A stretch of DNA of 26,870 nucleotides from a virus, in the IMG/VR virus record IMGVR_UViG_3300008267_000296, positions 1-26,870 of that record; one strand, given 5' to 3'. This document shows positions 2,533-26,663 of the stretch, in pieces. Position 1 is the stretch's first letter. Each line of letters starts with the position of its first letter. Made by a program: the position numbers and the translations under genes. Under the pieces are notes generated by a model, which was not told the origin of the DNA, did no database searches, and saw only the letters and a program-made list of their open reading frames with translations.

Positions 2533-5500
2533 ATGGCTTCAACAAATAAAGTTTTTGTATCTCCAGGTGTCTATACATCAGAAAGAGATTTAACTTTTGT
2601 GGCTCAAAGCGTAGGTGTTACTACTTTAGGTATAGTAGGTGAAACATTACAAGGACCCGCTTTCGAACCAATCTTTATTACAAATTTTGATGAGTACCAA
2701 GTTTATTTCGGTGGTACTAGTCCTGAAAAATTTGTAAATACTCAAATACCTAAATATGAGTCATCATATATTGCAAAGGCGTATCTTGCTCAATCAAACC
2801 AATTATTTGTAACGAGAATATTAGGTTTATCGGGTTACGATGCTGGACCTTCTTGGTCTATCGCAACAATTGCAAACCCTGATCCGGCAACAATTTCCGC
2901 AACTGGAAATATATCAGCACAGATATTATCCTTTACGGCGACTTCAGCAAGTACTACAGTAACTGCGGTTCCTGCTTTATTAAATTCACTGTTTTATAAT
3001 CAGTATACAACAAACGATGGTGGAACATCTTCATTAAACGAAGATTTTCAATCTTTTATATCATCACAAGTTACTAAATTTATAAATAGTGGTTCAGGAT
3101 CAACAGGTGGAAATGCGGTATTTTGGGGAACAGTTAGTGGTGGAACATTTAACCAAGTTACAGGTACTACTATTTTTGGTAACTCTATTTCAGCAACAAG
3201 CGAAACATTTGGTGTTAGTAATGTAATTTTAGCAAACGCTACATTATCCGCAACAACAAACGACGCATGGTATTATGGATTATTCGATTATTCTAAAGTA
3301 TCAAGTGTTGGAAGTTACTATGGTTATGGATTTGGTGCTGCTTTAAGTGCTATCGGTACAGGTGCAACTTCTACAACATATACAGGTACATGTACTATTT
3401 ATGGTACACAATATTCAGGAACACCATATACAACTTATGATGATATGGTTGTTGCAACACTTAGGTCAAGAGGTATTAGTACATATTCAGCATCACAAAG
3501 TGGGCCAAGATATGAAGTTTCTGCCACAACAGACGCAAGTATGATTTGTACTGGTTCATATTCGGCGGTTACAAAAGACCCATTTGCAACATTTGTTATT
3601 ACGGGGACTACTTTTGATAATGACACATTTAGTTTTGAAACTTCTATGGAATCTGCAAGTACAAATTACATTTCTAAAGTATTTGGAAAAAGTAATTTTG
3701 GTAAAGATAGGACTGAGGTTCCTCTTTTTGTTGAAGAGGTTTATCCAAGTTTGTTACTTAGTACTTATAGACAAGGAAAAATAAGAGGATTATATTGCGA
3801 CTTCATTGAACTACAAGAGGCTAGATCTTTAAATACCGAATCAATTGGGTTTTATTTGGAGCAATACCAAACACCTGAAACACCTTATATTGTTTCTGAA
3901 CTAAGAGGTAATAAAGTTTATAAATTATTCAAATTTGTTTTAATTTCTGACGGTAACGCGGCTAATAGACTTGTTAAAATTTCTATCGCAAACATTTCAT
4001 TTAATAATGGAACTTTTGATTTATTGGTAAGAGACTATTTTGATAATGATCAAAATGTAAGAGTCATTGAAAGTTTCACAAATTGTTCACTTGATCCTAA
4101 TTTGAATAATTATGTGGCAAATAAAGTAGGTACATCTAATGGTGAATACCAAGTAAAATCAAAATACATAATGTTAGAGATGAGTGACGAGGCACCAACA
4201 GACGCACTTCCTTGTGGTTTTGAAGGTTACAATATGAGAAAATACTCAAATGCCACGTCTCCTTTCATTATTTATAAAACAAAATATAACCAACCAGGGG
4301 ATGTGTTATATAATCCTCCTTTTGGATCATCAAATGGTGGAGATAATCCTGTTATTTCAAATGGAGAAAATCCAAGAAAAGTTTATTTAGGTGTTTCAAA
4401 TATAACAGGAATTGATAGTGACTTCTTCGAATACAAAGGTAAAGTGTTACCGGCGAATTTAGGAACAGACACAACAGGATCTGCATGGGGTTATATGACA
4501 AAAGGTTTCCACATGGACGTTAACGCAAGCGTTATAACAATTCCAAATGGTTTTGTGACTTCAGGTCAACCATATTTTGAAGTGGGAGTTTCACCGTTCA
4601 ATTCTGAACCAACAGATTCAGATAATGCGTATTATAGACTTAACACTCGTAAATTTACAGTTTTGGCTTACGGTGGTTTTGACGGATGGGACATATATAG
4701 AGAATATAGAACAAACCAAGATAATTTCCAATTAGGTCAATCAGGTTATAAATTTGGGGCTGAAGCGTCTATAACATACCCAACAGCTTCAGGTTGGGGA
4801 GCATTTAAACAAATCACAGGACCTAACCAAGAAGTGTGGGCAAATTCTGACTATTATGCTTACTTATGGGGTCAGTCTACATTTGCAAACCCTGAATCAA
4901 CAAACATAAATGTTTTTGTTACTCCTGGTATTGACTATAAAACAAATAGTAACTTAGTTGAAAGTGCTATTGATATGGTTGAAACGGATAGGGCAGACTC
5001 AATTTATATTTGTACAACACCTGACTTTAATTTATTTTTACCATCATTTGCTGATGTGTCTGAAGGTTTAGTGTTTCCACAAGAAGCAGTAGATGAGTTA
5101 GAAAATACAGGAATTGATTCTAACTATACCGCAACTTATTATCCTTGGGTTTTAACAAGAGACTCAGTTAATAATACACAAATTTATTTACCGGCAACCG
5201 CTGAGGTAACTAAAAATTTGGCATTAACGGATAATATCGCATTCCCTTGGTTTGCATCCGCAGGTTACACAAGAGGTTTAGTAAATGCCATCAAGGCAAG
5301 AAAGAAACTTACTCAGGATGATAGAGACACTCTTTATAAAGGAAGAATTAACCCTATTGCGACATTCTCAGATGTAGGTACCGTAATTTGGGGTAATAAA
5401 ACTTTACAAATTAGAGAGTCGGCACTTGATAGAATTAATGTGAGAAGATTGTTACTACAAGCAAGAAAACTAATTTCGGCAGTCGCAGTAAGGTTACTAT

Positions 5501-5739
5501 TTGAACAAAATGACGATAAAGTAAGACAAGATTTCTTAGACTCAGTTAATCCAATATTAGATCAAATAAGAAGAGATAGAGGTCTGATTGATTTCCGTGT
5601 GACTGTTTCAAACACTCCTGAAGATTTAGATTCAAATACTCTAACAGGTAAAATTTATTTAAAACCAACAAGGGCGTTAGAATATATAGACATCGAGTTT
5701 GTAATCACACCAACGGGAGCATCTTTTGATGACATTTAA
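2533..5739 (+). CDS. Contractile tail sheath protein (T4 gp18 family)
   Basis: This 1068-residue protein polymerises around the tail tube and contracts to drive the tube into the cell. The N-terminus carries the sheath signature FVSPGVYTSERDLTF (residues 8-22), followed by GIVGETLQGPAFEP. The C-terminal third is typical: an AFPWFASAGYTRG segment, NPIATFSDVGTVIWGNKTLQ, a helix-rich NVRRLLLQARKLI block and a final strand ending near ITPTGASFDDI. It is much longer than T4 gp18 (659 residues). The extra length lies mostly at about residues 110-370, a Ser/Thr/Gly-rich beta region expected on the outside of the sheath. It has its own promoter box and is followed by a terminator, so it is expressed as a single-gene unit, as expected for an abundant protein. 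Confidence 0.95.
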   Translation: MASTNKVFVSPGVYTSERDLTFVAQSVGVTTLGIVGETLQGPAFEPIFITNFDEYQVYFGGTSPEKFVNTQIPKYESSYIAKAYLAQSNQLFVTRILGLSGYDAGPSWSIATIANPDPATISATGNISAQILSFTATSASTTVTAVPALLNSLFYNQYTTNDGGTSSLNEDFQSFISSQVTKFINSGSGSTGGNAVFWGTVSGGTFNQVTGTTIFGNSISATSETFGVSNVILANATLSATTNDAWYYGLFDYSKVSSVGSYYGYGFGAALSAIGTGATSTTYTGTCTIYGTQYSGTPYTTYDDMVVATLRSRGISTYSASQSGPRYEVSATTDASMICTGSYSAVTKDPFATFVITGTTFDNDTFSFETSMESASTNYISKVFGKSNFGKDRTEVPLFVEEVYPSLLLSTYRQGKIRGLYCDFIELQEARSLNTESIGFYLEQYQTPETPYIVSELRGNKVYKLFKFVLISDGNAANRLVKISIANISFNNGTFDLLVRDYFDNDQNVRVIESFTNCSLDPNLNNYVANKVGTSNGEYQVKSKYIMLEMSDEAPTDALPCGFEGYNMRKYSNATSPFIIYKTKYNQPGDVLYNPPFGSSNGGDNPVISNGENPRKVYLGVSNITGIDSDFFEYKGKVLPANLGTDTTGSAWGYMTKGFHMDVNASVITIPNGFVTSGQPYFEVGVSPFNSEPTDSDNAYYRLNTRKFTVLAYGGFDGWDIYREYRTNQDNFQLGQSGYKFGAEASITYPTASGWGAFKQITGPNQEVWANSDYYAYLWGQSTFANPESTNINVFVTPGIDYKTNSNLVESAIDMVETDRADSIYICTTPDFNLFLPSFADVSEGLVFPQEAVDELENTGIDSNYTATYYPWVLTRDSVNNTQIYLPATAEVTKNLALTDNIAFPWFASAGYTRGLVNAIKARKKLTQDDRDTLYKGRINPIATFSDVGTVIWGNKTLQIRESALDRINVRRLLLQARKLISAVAVRLLFEQNDDKVRQDFLDSVNPILDQIRRDRGLIDFRVTVSNTPEDLDSNTLTGKIYLKPTRALEYIDIEFVITPTGASFDDI

Positions 5740-5821: not shown

Positions 5822-8170
5822 ATGGAAAAAAATATATTAGAAGAAATTTTTAGAATTAAATCAATGATGGGTATTAATGAAAGTAAAATCTTGTTGACCG
5901 AGAATATATATGATCCAATTGTTGATGCACTCGTTAGATTATTAAGAAAACAAGTGGTTCTTGATGCGTTTGTAACTGCGACAACAACAGCAAAAGCTGC
6001 CGGAAAAAAAATAGTAAAAGTTGGTAGTAAGTCCATTGAGGTGACTAATGACGAATATAACGAAATAGTCAAATTTATGAAAAATGAAATTGATTTTAGT
6101 GGTCTTACGTCTAGTGCAAAATCAAAAGTAAGAGGGTTCATATTAGAATTAGGAGAAAGTGACATTGCAATTAAAAAAGAATTAGAAACATTATATGATA
6201 AAGCCTATGAAGCAGGGGTTTTGAATTTGTTGAGAAATTATGGTGATGAAACTATTGGTTATACAGAAAAACAACTTTTAGCATATATCAAACAACAAAT
6301 GAAAAAAAATAGAGCTCTAGATGATATAATGGGAGAACTTTTTCCTGATTCTGACGAAACAATAAGAAGTTTTTTATCTAAAAAAATAAGTAGTAAACTT
6401 GTTGATTTAGGAGACGAATTGGATACCATGGTTTATACCGGTGGAAAAAGTGTTGATGAATATCTAGCGGGATTATCGCCAGAAGAAATAAATAGAATTA
6501 AAGGAGCTAAATTAACTCCCGACATGATTGAAGAATGGGCAAATGCTGCTAAAAAAGACGTTGCATTTTTGTCGGAATTTGCCGATGCTATTAGAAAATC
6601 AAAAGAAGAATTAATTCAAGAAATGAACGATCTAGCGTTTAATTTTAAAAAATTAACAGAATCTGATGAATTTTTAAAAATGACAGATGATGCGAAAGCA
6701 AAAGTCATGCAGGCGTATACCACTAAATTGGCCGCTAAAATGAATTCTCTTGAAACAAAAATTCCTGGGATTGGTAAGAAAATGATAAAAGAAGGGAATT
6801 ATCCTCCAGAAATGATAAGTTTTTTGGAAGGGGCAAAAGATAGTGATGTTCTTTTATATTTAAAAAGATTTTGGGGATTAAGAGATGAAACAACACAATC
6901 GACCATAAATATAGTTAAAGATCACGGTAAAAAGATTGCAAAAGATTTAGCGGCAGCATACACGACTATTTTTAAATTGATAGCAAAAACTTTTTTTAGT
7001 AATGAGGGTGGTTGGAAAAAAGGTATGTTAGCAAGGGCTAAATCTTCAACAGCTGCGTTAGATTTAAGAGGTAATGTTGGTTGGTATTTTTTTACAGATC
7101 AATTTTTATCAGTAAAGTCATTTACGGATTTTGCAATTAAAAAAAGTATTTTTAGACCGAATCAAAAAAACTTTGATAAGTTTAAATCTTTTGCTGGTCT
7201 GCTTGGGTTGGCATATGTCGGATATGTTTTTTTTGGTGTAATTAAATATGGAATTTTTTTAGCGGAAGACTTACTTAAAGGTTTGTGGAATTTTGGAATG
7301 GAAGGTTTACAAAATTTAGGTTTGGAAAGTTTTGAAAAGGCTGAGTTTAAGATGGAAGATTATGAAGACTTGGAATCTAGTTTTGGTGAAATATTAGGGG
7401 TATGGTTAGCAAGCAATGCTATCGATGCGTTTGTTGGGGATCTTAGTGAAGACCCTACTGCAGGTGAGGTAATAAAAAATATGATTTTAGGTTCTTTACC
7501 CACTCTTGGTTTATTATCATATCAAAAATCAATGGCCGCGAATTTCATAGAGACATTTGGGTTAGAGGTTAAAGGTATTGCGCAAGATCCGATAGATATT
7601 GTACAAGGTATTTTTAAATATTTTAATTTTTCAAGTAAAAAAGAAGAGGCAAAAAAAGAATTAGAAGAAGCGACCGGAAATGCAGTACCTGAAATATCAC
7701 CTGAAGAAAAGTATAATGCCGAAGTCGAGAAAAAAAGATTAAGTGTTTTTAATCAGATAGATAAGTACTATTTTAGAACACAAAAAGAAATAGGAGTATT
7801 TTCAGATGAATCAGAGAAAAAAAAGTTACTCGAAAAGATTAAGTATGGTGGGACTTATGATGAAAAAAACCCTTCAGTCGACGATACAAAATTTTATATA
7901 GAATCAGGAGGTAAAAAGTACAATATTCCAAAAATTTCAGATGTAACTGGAAAAAAATGGACTTCGGATGGTAAAGAAGTTAATTGGGAGACAGACCCAA
8001 ATTTAGGTAAAAAATTATGGGAGGAAAATTATATGAAAAAATTAGAAAAAAAAATTATTAATGAAGTTTTGAATTTGAATAAATCATACAAAAATACATA
8101 TTCAAATAAAAAACAAAATATTATTTTGACTGAAAATCAATTACAAAATTTAATGTTAAGATTGAAATGA
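5822..8170 (+). CDS. Large tagged, probably head-internal or ejected protein (782 aa)
   Basis: I do not recognise a named family. Residues 1-27 form an amphipathic tag (ILEEIFRIKSMMG at 5-17) ending in L25-T26-E27 before N28, which matches the T4-type prohead protease rule. The tag resembles that of the protein at 25929. The body is long and helical, rich in Lys and Glu. There is a hydrophobic segment at about residues 457-481 (GLLGLAYVGYVFFGVIKYGI) and a weaker one near 551-566. The last 15 residues contain ILTENQLQNLMLRL, which resembles the N-terminal motif of the 76-426 protein. A large, proteolytically matured protein with a potential membrane segment could be an internal protein ejected with the DNA; this is inference. 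Its stop overlaps the next gene's ATG (ATGA), so the two are translationally coupled. Confidence 0.7.
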   Translation: MEKNILEEIFRIKSMMGINESKILLTENIYDPIVDALVRLLRKQVVLDAFVTATTTAKAAGKKIVKVGSKSIEVTNDEYNEIVKFMKNEIDFSGLTSSAKSKVRGFILELGESDIAIKKELETLYDKAYEAGVLNLLRNYGDETIGYTEKQLLAYIKQQMKKNRALDDIMGELFPDSDETIRSFLSKKISSKLVDLGDELDTMVYTGGKSVDEYLAGLSPEEINRIKGAKLTPDMIEEWANAAKKDVAFLSEFADAIRKSKEELIQEMNDLAFNFKKLTESDEFLKMTDDAKAKVMQAYTTKLAAKMNSLETKIPGIGKKMIKEGNYPPEMISFLEGAKDSDVLLYLKRFWGLRDETTQSTINIVKDHGKKIAKDLAAAYTTIFKLIAKTFFSNEGGWKKGMLARAKSSTAALDLRGNVGWYFFTDQFLSVKSFTDFAIKKSIFRPNQKNFDKFKSFAGLLGLAYVGYVFFGVIKYGIFLAEDLLKGLWNFGMEGLQNLGLESFEKAEFKMEDYEDLESSFGEILGVWLASNAIDAFVGDLSEDPTAGEVIKNMILGSLPTLGLLSYQKSMAANFIETFGLEVKGIAQDPIDIVQGIFKYFNFSSKKEEAKKELEEATGNAVPEISPEEKYNAEVEKKRLSVFNQIDKYYFRTQKEIGVFSDESEKKKLLEKIKYGGTYDEKNPSVDDTKFYIESGGKKYNIPKISDVTGKKWTSDGKEVNWETDPNLGKKLWEENYMKKLEKKIINEVLNLNKSYKNTYSNKKQNIILTENQLQNLMLRLK

Positions 8171-9045
8171 ATATAAAAAAACATATATATAATCAGATAA
8201 GAAAAAGAAATCTATTAGAGGGTATTACTGATGAAGGTCGCCCTGATTTGAAATACTATGCTTTTGATTGGGACGACAACATTGCATTTATGCCAACTCA
8301 AATTATGGTATTAACAGAAAATGAAGATGAGGTTGGTATGTCAACAGAAGATTTCGCAGAACATAGACACCAAATAGGTGTTGAACCTTTTAATTATAAA
8401 GGAACCACAATTGTTGGTTATGCTCCCAATCCATTTAGAAATTTTAGAGAGGAGGGGGATAAAAGATTTGTTATCGATTCTATGGTTGCATCACCGGGGC
8501 CTTCTTGGAATGATTTTGTCGAATGTATTAATGGAGGGTCTATTTTTGCTATTATCACCGCCAGAGGTCACAACCCTGAAACACTTAAAGAGGCGACATA
8601 TAATTATATCGTATCAAGTCACAATGGTATAAATATGAAAACATTAGTGGAAAATTTAAAAACTTATAGAAATTTAGAATCACAGGAAAATTTAGATGAG
8701 GGATTTGATTTAAATTTTACAGACAAAGATTTAATTGAAGAATATTTAGAAATGTGTAAGTTTTATCCGGTGTCTTTTGGTGAGGGTAGTGCCGCTAATC
8801 CTGAAGAGGGTAAAATAAAGGCAATGAGGGAATTTATAAGTTATTGTAAGGAATTAGCCCAAGAAATTGGACAGAAGGCGATATTTAAAAATGATGTAAC
8901 AAATCATGAAATTATACCAACAATTGGTTTTTCAGATGACGACCCAAGAAATATTGATAAAATGAAAGAATTTTTATCTAGTGAATATGAAGAAAGTCCA
9001 GTAAGAACATATTTAACTAAAGGTAATATTAAAAAAGAATTATAA
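8167..9045 (+). CDS. HAD-superfamily hydrolase with head-targeting-like N-terminus
   Basis: This 292-residue protein has the haloacid dehalogenase catalytic motifs in order. Motif I is D34-W35-D36-D37-N38 (nucleophile D34, acid/base D36), motif II is the T131 of IITARG, the motif III lysine is K216 or K218, and motif IV is the acidic SDDD at 256-259. All key residues look intact, so a phosphatase- or nucleotidase-type activity is plausible; the substrate is unknown. Residues 1-18 form a basic tag ending L16-L17-E18 before G19, so cleavage by a prohead protease would leave the full catalytic domain. It overlaps the upstream tagged gene by four bases (ATGA) and lies between sheath and tube genes. 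The context suggests an enzyme carried in the virion rather than a cytoplasmic one, but that is an inference. Confidence 0.8.
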   Translation: MNIKKHIYNQIRKRNLLEGITDEGRPDLKYYAFDWDDNIAFMPTQIMVLTENEDEVGMSTEDFAEHRHQIGVEPFNYKGTTIVGYAPNPFRNFREEGDKRFVIDSMVASPGPSWNDFVECINGGSIFAIITARGHNPETLKEATYNYIVSSHNGINMKTLVENLKTYRNLESQENLDEGFDLNFTDKDLIEEYLEMCKFYPVSFGEGSAANPEEGKIKAMREFISYCKELAQEIGQKAIFKNDVTNHEIIPTIGFSDDDPRNIDKMKEFLSSEYEESPVRTYLTKGNIKKEL

Positions 9046-9149: not shown

Positions 9150-9638
9150 ATGGCTGATTTACTAATGAAAATGCCTTTTCAGTATGAACCTAAAAGAAAA
9201 AATAGGTTTATAATGACGTTCCCTTCGTCTTTGGGAATTAATTCTTGGTACGTTGAAAGTGCATCAAGACCAAGTATAACTATCGGTAGTAAAGAAATAA
9301 AATTTTTAAATACTGAAACTTATGTTGCAGGATCTTTCAAATGGGAAAATATTACAGTGAAACTTAGAGACCCAATCGGACCTTCAGCTGCACAAGCGGT
9401 TATGGAGTGGGTAAGATTACATGCCGAATCAGTAACTGGTCGTATGGGATATGCCGCGGGTTACAAAAAAGACCTTGACTTAGAAATGTTAGACCCAACA
9501 GGCGTTGCTATTGAAAAGTGGATTTTACAAGGTTGTCAATTAACTGCCGCTAAATTTGGAGACTTAGCTTATACTGGAGACGATCTAGCAGGAATCGATT
9601 TAACAATTCAACCGGATAGATGTATATTAGTTTATTAA
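9150..9638 (+). CDS. Tail tube protein (T4 gp19 family)
   Basis: This 162-residue protein is almost exactly the length of T4 gp19 (163). It forms the stacked hexameric rings of the inner tube. The N-terminus (PFQYEPKRKNRFIMTFP) and the following SWYVESASRPS segment are typical of the gp19 family. So are the middle VKLRDPIGPSAAQAVMEWVRLH block and the C-terminal strands from LDLEMLDPTGVAIEKW to LTIQPDRC. It is a single-gene unit with its own promoter box and a strong terminator, consistent with high expression. In T4 the tube gene directly follows the sheath gene; here two tagged cargo-like genes are inserted between them. Confidence 0.95.
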   Translation: MADLLMKMPFQYEPKRKNRFIMTFPSSLGINSWYVESASRPSITIGSKEIKFLNTETYVAGSFKWENITVKLRDPIGPSAAQAVMEWVRLHAESVTGRMGYAAGYKKDLDLEMLDPTGVAIEKWILQGCQLTAAKFGDLAYTGDDLAGIDLTIQPDRCILVY

Positions 9639-25928: not shown

Positions 25929-26663
25929 ATGAAGGTTGATAAAAAACTATTAGAAGAAATTAAAAGAATAAAAGAAATTAGTGGATATATTCTTAACGAA
26001 CAAGACCCTGCGGCAGGAGCACCACCCCCACCACCGGCAGATGCAGGAGCACCACCAGCAGATGCAGGAGCACCACCAGCAGATGCAGGAGCACCACCGG
26101 CAGAAGGAGGGGCACCACCAGCAGATGCGGGAGCACCACCAGCAGAAGGTGGTACCGAAATACCTGAACCTGTGGATATAGAAAACGATCCTGATGTAGA
26201 AGAAGTAGATACTGACAAACCTGAAGAAGGTGAGGAAGAAACTGAAGAAATTGATATTACAGATTTAGTTACAACACAACAAGAAATAAAAGATAAACAA
26301 GATTCTTTTATGGATGATATGATAAGTAAATTGGAAGATTTACAAAACAAATTATCATCAGTTGATCAAATAATAAATAAAATTGAAAGTTTAGAAACTA
26401 AGTTTGATAGATATAGAGAAAAAACTCCCGAAGAAAAATTAATGTTAAGATCTTTAGACTCTTACCCGTATAATCAAAAATTGACCGATTTCTTTGATGA
26501 CAAAAAAGTTGACATGGAAAAATCTGGTAAAAATGAATACGTCTTAACATCCGATGATGTTGAGAATTTTTCACCAAATGAGATAAAAAAAACTTTTAAT
26601 ATTTTTGACGAAGAAGAAGAAAATATTAAAGAAAGTTACAAAAGAAGACGTAGATTTTTATAA
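25929..26663 (+). CDS. Tagged proline-rich, acidic coiled-coil protein, probably head-internal or core
   Basis: This is a 244-residue protein with four parts. (1) Residues 1-24 are a basic amphipathic tag with LLEEIKRIKEISG, ending L22-N23-E24 before Q25. It is closely similar to the tag of the 782-residue protein and fits prohead protease cleavage. (2) Residues ~30-75 are six tandem copies of a GAPPADA/GAPPAEG heptad. (3) Residues ~76-115 are strongly acidic. (4) From ~116 there is a coiled coil (EIKDKQDSFMDDMISKLEDL and DQIINKIESLETKFDRY), then a charged C-terminal domain ending in RRRRF. A cleavable tag plus flexible linker plus acidic coiled coil suggests a head core/scaffold or internal protein. 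I cannot name it. Followed by a strong terminator. Confidence 0.65.
   Translation: MKVDKKLLEEIKRIKEISGYILNEQDPAAGAPPPPPADAGAPPADAGAPPADAGAPPAEGGAPPADAGAPPAEGGTEIPEPVDIENDPDVEEVDTDKPEEGEEETEEIDITDLVTTQQEIKDKQDSFMDDMISKLEDLQNKLSSVDQIINKIESLETKFDRYREKTPEEKLMLRSLDSYPYNQKLTDFFDDKKVDMEKSGKNEYVLTSDDVENFSPNEIKKTFNIFDEEEENIKESYKRRRRFL
26016..26150 (+). repeat. Six-copy 21-bp tandem repeat encoding GAPPADA
   Basis: Units of GGAGCACCACCAGCAGATGCA start at 26016 (first copy 9 bases longer), 26046, 26067, 26088, 26109 and 26130, all in frame. Two copies (26046 and 26067) are identical. The region is far more GC-rich than its surroundings. Such an in-frame repeat can expand and contract without breaking the gene. 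Confidence 0.9.

Follow-up and report, generated by a model that had tools for sequence, protein, structure and literature searches.

We propose that a HAD-type phosphatase encoded in the tail gene cluster of an uncultured virus is probably packed in the phage head and injected into the host together with the DNA, a proposal that concerns uncultured giant phages of fresh water. The gene lies in a window, by which we mean the whole stretch of DNA that was analysed (26,870 nucleotides of IMG/VR record IMGVR_UViG_3300008267_000296), and on balance an active HAD phosphomonoesterase carried as head cargo is the best overall explanation of what we observed. Taken by itself, the part of this explanation that would make the protein head cargo with a cleaved tag is very likely, and as judged from conservation there is little doubt that the enzyme would be catalytically active. 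To our knowledge head-injected enzymes come from only a few cultured phages, and the signature described here, which is uniform and testable, marks a widespread enzyme as predicted head cargo without the need for culture and flags dozens more ORFs in a related genome.

The HAD gene and its N-terminal tag

The predicted HAD-type hydrolase was confirmed with regard to its ORF, its tag and its location in the tail cluster, and the features of the locus are given in Table 1. The start codon overlaps the stop of the preceding ORF in an ATGA at 8167-8170, and the protein begins with MNIKKHIYNQIRKRNLLE↓GITDEGRPDLKYYAFDWDDN, where the arrow here and below marks the predicted or known cut. Residues D34, D36, R133, K216 and D257-D259 were invariant in 56 relatives as well as in a set extending down to 28% identity, and the HAD superfamily motif residues D34, D36, T131, K216 and D257-D258 were invariant or nearly so. 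The original prediction had described all four HAD motifs as intact, which holds for the catalytic residues, all of them being conserved, although position +4 of motif I is occupied by Asn where canonical HADs have Thr or Val. In an AlphaFold model of the window protein T131 closes strand 127-131, K216 lies early in helix 212-237 and D257 closes strand 252-257.

Table 1 Features of the HAD locus in the window
Feature	Position	Strand	Evidence or remark
Tail sheath gene, conserved upstream neighbour	2533..5739	+	Domain searches and locus comparison
782-aa ORF whose N-terminus looks like a tag (MEKNILEEIFRIKSMMGINESKILLTE); an orphan inserted between the sheath and HAD genes	5822..8170	+	Locus comparison
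Conserved 45-aa micro-ORF, MKKLEKKIINEVLNLNKSYKNTYSNKKQNIILTENQLQNLMLRLK, both halves of which resemble tags	8033..8170	+	4-nt overlap with HAD start; lies within the 3' end of the 782-aa ORF, in the same frame
HAD-type phosphatase gene, tagged, 292 aa	8167..9045	+	262 related loci with one query; at least 589 with an alignment query
N-terminal tag, 18 residues, MNIKKHIYNQIRKRNLLE; predicted prohead-protease cut after E18	8167..8220	+	Alignments, dN/dS; modelled with low confidence and outside the domain
Linker, residues 19-27, from cut site to domain	8221..8247	+	Alignments and model
HAD catalytic domain, residues 28-292	8248..9042	+	Alignments and models, including homologue model
HAD motif I codons	8266-8280	+	D34-W-D36-D-N38
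HAD motif II, T131 codon	8557-8559	+	IIT-ARGH
HAD motif III, K216 codon	8812-8814	+	Lys
HAD motif IV, D257-D258 codons	8935-8940	+	GFSDDD
Tail tube gene, conserved downstream neighbour	9150..9638	+	Domain searches and locus comparison

The 18-residue tag, which ends in L-L-E and is followed by Gly, is present as claimed; it does not however stop exactly where the domain starts, as residues 19-27 form a linker and the first strand of the model covers residues 29-33, with residues 6-18 having pLDDT values below 50. In its length and its ending the tag corresponds to T4-type propeptides, which are about 10-20 residues long with an L/I-x-E end. In T4, gp21 cleaves after L/I-x-E, and internal proteins are directed to the head by propeptides 10-20 residues long (PMC9026906, PMC5694885). 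In a set of 87 distinct near relatives the cut site E18-G19 with Leu, Ile or Val at P3 was found in all 87 (64, 19 and 4 sequences, respectively), while the remaining tag columns had an entropy of about 2-3.4 bits, illustrating the hypervariability of the tag body. The ratio dN/dS was 0.36 for the tag body and 0.084 for both the cut site and the domain, and the cut site is thus constrained as strongly as the catalytic domain. The position of the start codon is itself fixed by an overlap of 1 or 4 nt with an upstream micro-ORF in 143 of the 177 loci that carry the latter.

Tag exchange and the head-maturation machinery of relatives

When the comparison was extended to 170 distinct homologues, [LIVF]xE preceded the domain in 166, across several unrelated tag types. 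The same domain was found behind MKRIIVTEKQIRGVISSIVSE↓S (L194), MKRSLILTERQLTKLIKE (L201), MSKIIITAKQLEHLSNVVKE (L208), MKDYHKVIVKEIINE (L200), MIKKFNHFISE↓S (L183) and MKLIVENWNKFVSE↓G (L202), and some of the tag types recur on further ORFs that such phages encode. With the tag residues left out, a tree of 40 domains requires a minimum of 10 switches between tag types, losses included, and such repeated replacement on one enzyme suggests selection on packaging itself. The MIKKF-type tags of distant homologues resemble T4 IPI, which in the T4 record starts with MKTFKEF and has TITE↓A. Homologues in megaphages occupy another genomic position, yet most of them are tagged.

The cut site is absent from four viral homologues (L085, L186, L195 and L198) and a bacterial homologue (L159, 1739-2566) likewise has no tag. 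The latter comes from a Gracilibacteria MAG, in a contig translated with genetic code 25 (TGA=Gly), close to genes resembling RsmI and RNase R; in looking for a bacterial origin we found that, of 379 genomes of the phylum, a single one had a homologue. The original prediction had placed relatives in which the gene is untagged and located among metabolism genes among the observations that would speak against it; these five are in part such relatives, but as the enzyme is evidently able to exist without the tag we read them as showing the tag to be an add-on rather than meaningless. Tag-like C-terminal extensions were seen in L193 and L187 (EELNEGIIIENLINRIVSK and MEHLNNFSKFNE, respectively), and as L187 is without a clear N-terminal tag its tag may have shifted to the opposite end.

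The window is a 26.9-kb fragment and the protease and capsid evidence comes from contigs of its relatives, G001 and G004. Peptidase_S77 (PF03420, the gp21-type protease) was detected in relatives' contigs with values of 5.5e-26 (G001, 292 kb, where the gene lies at 154799-155509) and 5.3e-23. A capsid protein of the gp23 type was detected with 3.6e-64 in G001 and up to 2.5e-64 among relatives' contigs. Both proteins are encoded in G004 too, which places T4-type machinery in two relatives. The capsid protein of a relative has its site at residue 60, in the sequence ASHLINE↓AASTD, which matches L-N-E↓G. Across 286 ORFs of G001 the motif [LI]xE was 2.15x denser at positions 2-24 than at positions 41-90 (P about 1e-21), and about 50 other ORFs of this genome (291,867 bp; L168-L182) have recognisable tags of several classes, their Pfam matches including lysozyme, PAP2 phosphatase, GNAT acetyltransferase and pterin dehydratase. 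These tagged ORFs may be taken as a list of candidate head cargo. In G001 the bS21 gene is on one strand and the protease and capsid genes are on the other, the same layout as in huge phages of freshwater Bacteroidetes (PMC9723584), which suggests a Bacteroidetes host; the available part of that report mentions neither the HAD nor the tags.

Head packaging, as put forward in the original prediction, is therefore strongly favoured by comparative evidence, namely the invariant cut site, the repeated tag swaps, a T4-type protease and a capsid protein with the same site in related genomes, and dozens of tagged ORFs. The T4 internal head proteins (IPI, IPII, IPIII and Alt) share with the HAD a short N-terminal propeptide, its L/I-x-E end and a gp21-type protease site, and the HAD, as predicted cargo, may be likened in particular to Alt, an enzyme cargo injected with the DNA. 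It differs from the T4 proteins in that the cargo would be a HAD phosphatase, in that several interchangeable tags are used on one enzyme and in the location of the gene between sheath and tube. The tag would carry newly made HAD into the prohead core and, as the site implies, the phage's gp21-type protease would cleave after [L/I/V]-x-E, taking off the tag and leaving a free enzyme starting at G19. As in the case of T4 Alt and IPI, the enzyme may then stay with the DNA and be ejected into the host. Our guess is that it would there act on nucleic acid or nucleotides in the manner of a 3'-phosphatase, taking off a terminal phosphate, and that this would help the phage against nucleases or nucleotide signals of the host at a time when its own genes are still silent.

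Packaging in the virion has been argued from gene context for ADP-ribosyltransferases, Macro and Nudix enzymes (PMC9503650), and we found no report of a packaged or virion HAD phosphatase in the literature searched. As T4-type head cargo is already known, we rate the enzyme family and its interchangeable tags as the new elements.

Fold, structural neighbours and RNA-repair context

Searches of Pfam, NCBIfam and PHROG yielded only scattered weak matches and no entry that describes the HAD protein family, and a PDB sequence search with the family gave nothing credible. A first model of the window protein, based on 56 close relatives (pLDDT 79), failed to distinguish the HAD families from one another and gave a tie with an unrelated dehydrogenase, whereas a wider alignment, used to model the untagged homologue L198 (pLDDT 93), did separate them; the fold comparison accordingly refers to L198 and not to the window protein. 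The best VIA-align match of this model was the T4 Pnkp 3'-phosphatase 5uj0 (Z 10.9, 130 of 142 residues, rmsd 3.2), followed by Pnkp1 4xrp and T4 Pnk 1ltq (Z 10.2 for each). The top four rows were all Pnkp (Z 9.6-10.9, 130-135 residues) with the first other protein at Z 8.8 and the rest at 8.6 and below, and most of the top rows were HAD phosphatases, which argues for a Rossmann-like HAD core in L198. A structural comparison that included polynucleotide 3'-phosphatases had been suggested as a check in the original prediction, and it is these that ranked highest. Foldseek searches of the PDB gave E-values that were not significant for either model and hhalign gave no sequence link to T4 Pnkp (probability 0.2), with Pfam HAD_PNKP also unmatched, so that the likeness to Pnkp is one of resemblance and not of membership. 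T4 gp30.2 was also considered as a possible relative and the comparison gave nothing.

The 3'-phosphatase domain of T4 Pnkp and bacterial Pnkp1, the closest solved folds, have in common with the present HAD a DxD motif I, an S/T-G/A-R motif II, the Lys and an acidic motif IV. The present HAD differs in being stand-alone, with an extra insert after motif I, a DxDDN motif and no profile similarity to them. T4 Pnkp is moreover an early gene product (PMC3014915) and is not known as head cargo, whereas the present HAD is predicted cargo.

That the substrate is a nucleic-acid end or a nucleotide is a guess to which we would give somewhat less than even chances. The invariant R67 and R133 (TARGH) would be well suited to a substrate that carries negative charge beyond the scissile phosphate. 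T4 repairs PrrC-cut tRNA with Pnkp and RNA ligase (PMC3014915). In G001 genes for an RNA ligase, an AAA_33 kinase and a SAK HAD (L181, 6017-6598, 9760-10878 and 15022-15414) are found within about 9 kb, the kinase being stand-alone, and in G002 as well about 5 kb separates a ligase gene from a kinase gene. The presence of these three genes in a related genome indicates that RNA repair belongs to the gene set of the phage. We had considered whether these phages might have no other RNA-repair phosphatase, a notion that was dropped upon finding the SAK HAD; the present enzyme, if a 3'-phosphatase, would thus not fill a gap and is not the sole candidate phosphatase. SAK (Swiss Army Knife) HADs (PF18143) are HAD phosphatases linked to RNA repair in phages (PMC9503650), while the present family has no Pfam match to PF18143. 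If the 3'-phosphatase reading were true, healing of nucleic-acid ends would be carried in the particle and not made after infection. The fullest version of this reading, a virion-delivered polynucleotide 3'-phosphatase that is made together with a tag-only micropeptide, starts end repair at injection and has been re-addressed to the head by tag swaps across huge phages, seems to us doubtful as a whole.

Gene neighbourhood and alternative explanations

The HAD gene is located between the sheath and tail tube genes in nearly every near relative, even where sheath identity is 44-57%. This position, away from the head genes, counts against head cargo and would agree with the HAD being a tail or neck component or an assembly factor, the N-terminal peptide of which is a tail assembly signal. 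We consider this improbable given that the T4 protease works inside the prohead while the tail is assembled separately (PMC9026906), that the distant homologues located elsewhere are still tagged and that the N-termini of the window's sheath and tube proteins have no such tag. It is very improbable indeed that the N-terminal segment is the natural start of the HAD fold in an ordinary cytoplasmic late protein, with an L-x-E that is incidental. Short L-x-E motifs are admittedly common, at about 1.4% of positions, and some homologues presumably function without the segment (L085, L159), but in the model the segment lies outside the domain, its variability spares the cut site, and unrelated segments have been swapped in many times with [LIVF]xE kept in all but a few. 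A different kind of alternative accepts packaging and takes the substrate to be a phosphoprotein or a small metabolite. This is a minority possibility of some weight, as Lem4, Ceg4, MDP-1 and AphA are among the structural neighbours of both models, although the better model gives them Z 7.8-8.3 as against 9.6-10.9 for the four Pnkp rows.

Directly upstream of the HAD gene, 177 of 233 loci, many of which are near-copies, have a conserved micro-ORF with a product about 45 aa long, such as MKIEKKLIKESLGYTQQGKKTFSNKKQNIIITEAQLEKLLEKLKK. Both halves of the micro-ORF resemble tags used elsewhere, and in the window its ATG is preceded by GGAGG; its product is possibly a core peptide, a decoy or cargo. 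The coupling of the HAD gene to a large tagged protein, as originally claimed, does exist in the window in the form of the ATGA overlap but is peculiar to it, the conserved partner being the micro-ORF. No relative of the 782-aa ORF was found in viral contigs and it is missing from the loci of HAD relatives, and on these grounds a functional pairing of its product with the HAD was rejected.

In one clade (L020-L028) about 1.5 kb separates the HAD gene from the tube gene, and the micro-ORF is longer where seen. Elsewhere in the window the ORFs at 76-426 and 25929-26663 also start with tag-like segments (MKRKIGLSESDLYRIVNRVIYE and MKVDKKLLEEIKRIKEISGYILNE, respectively).
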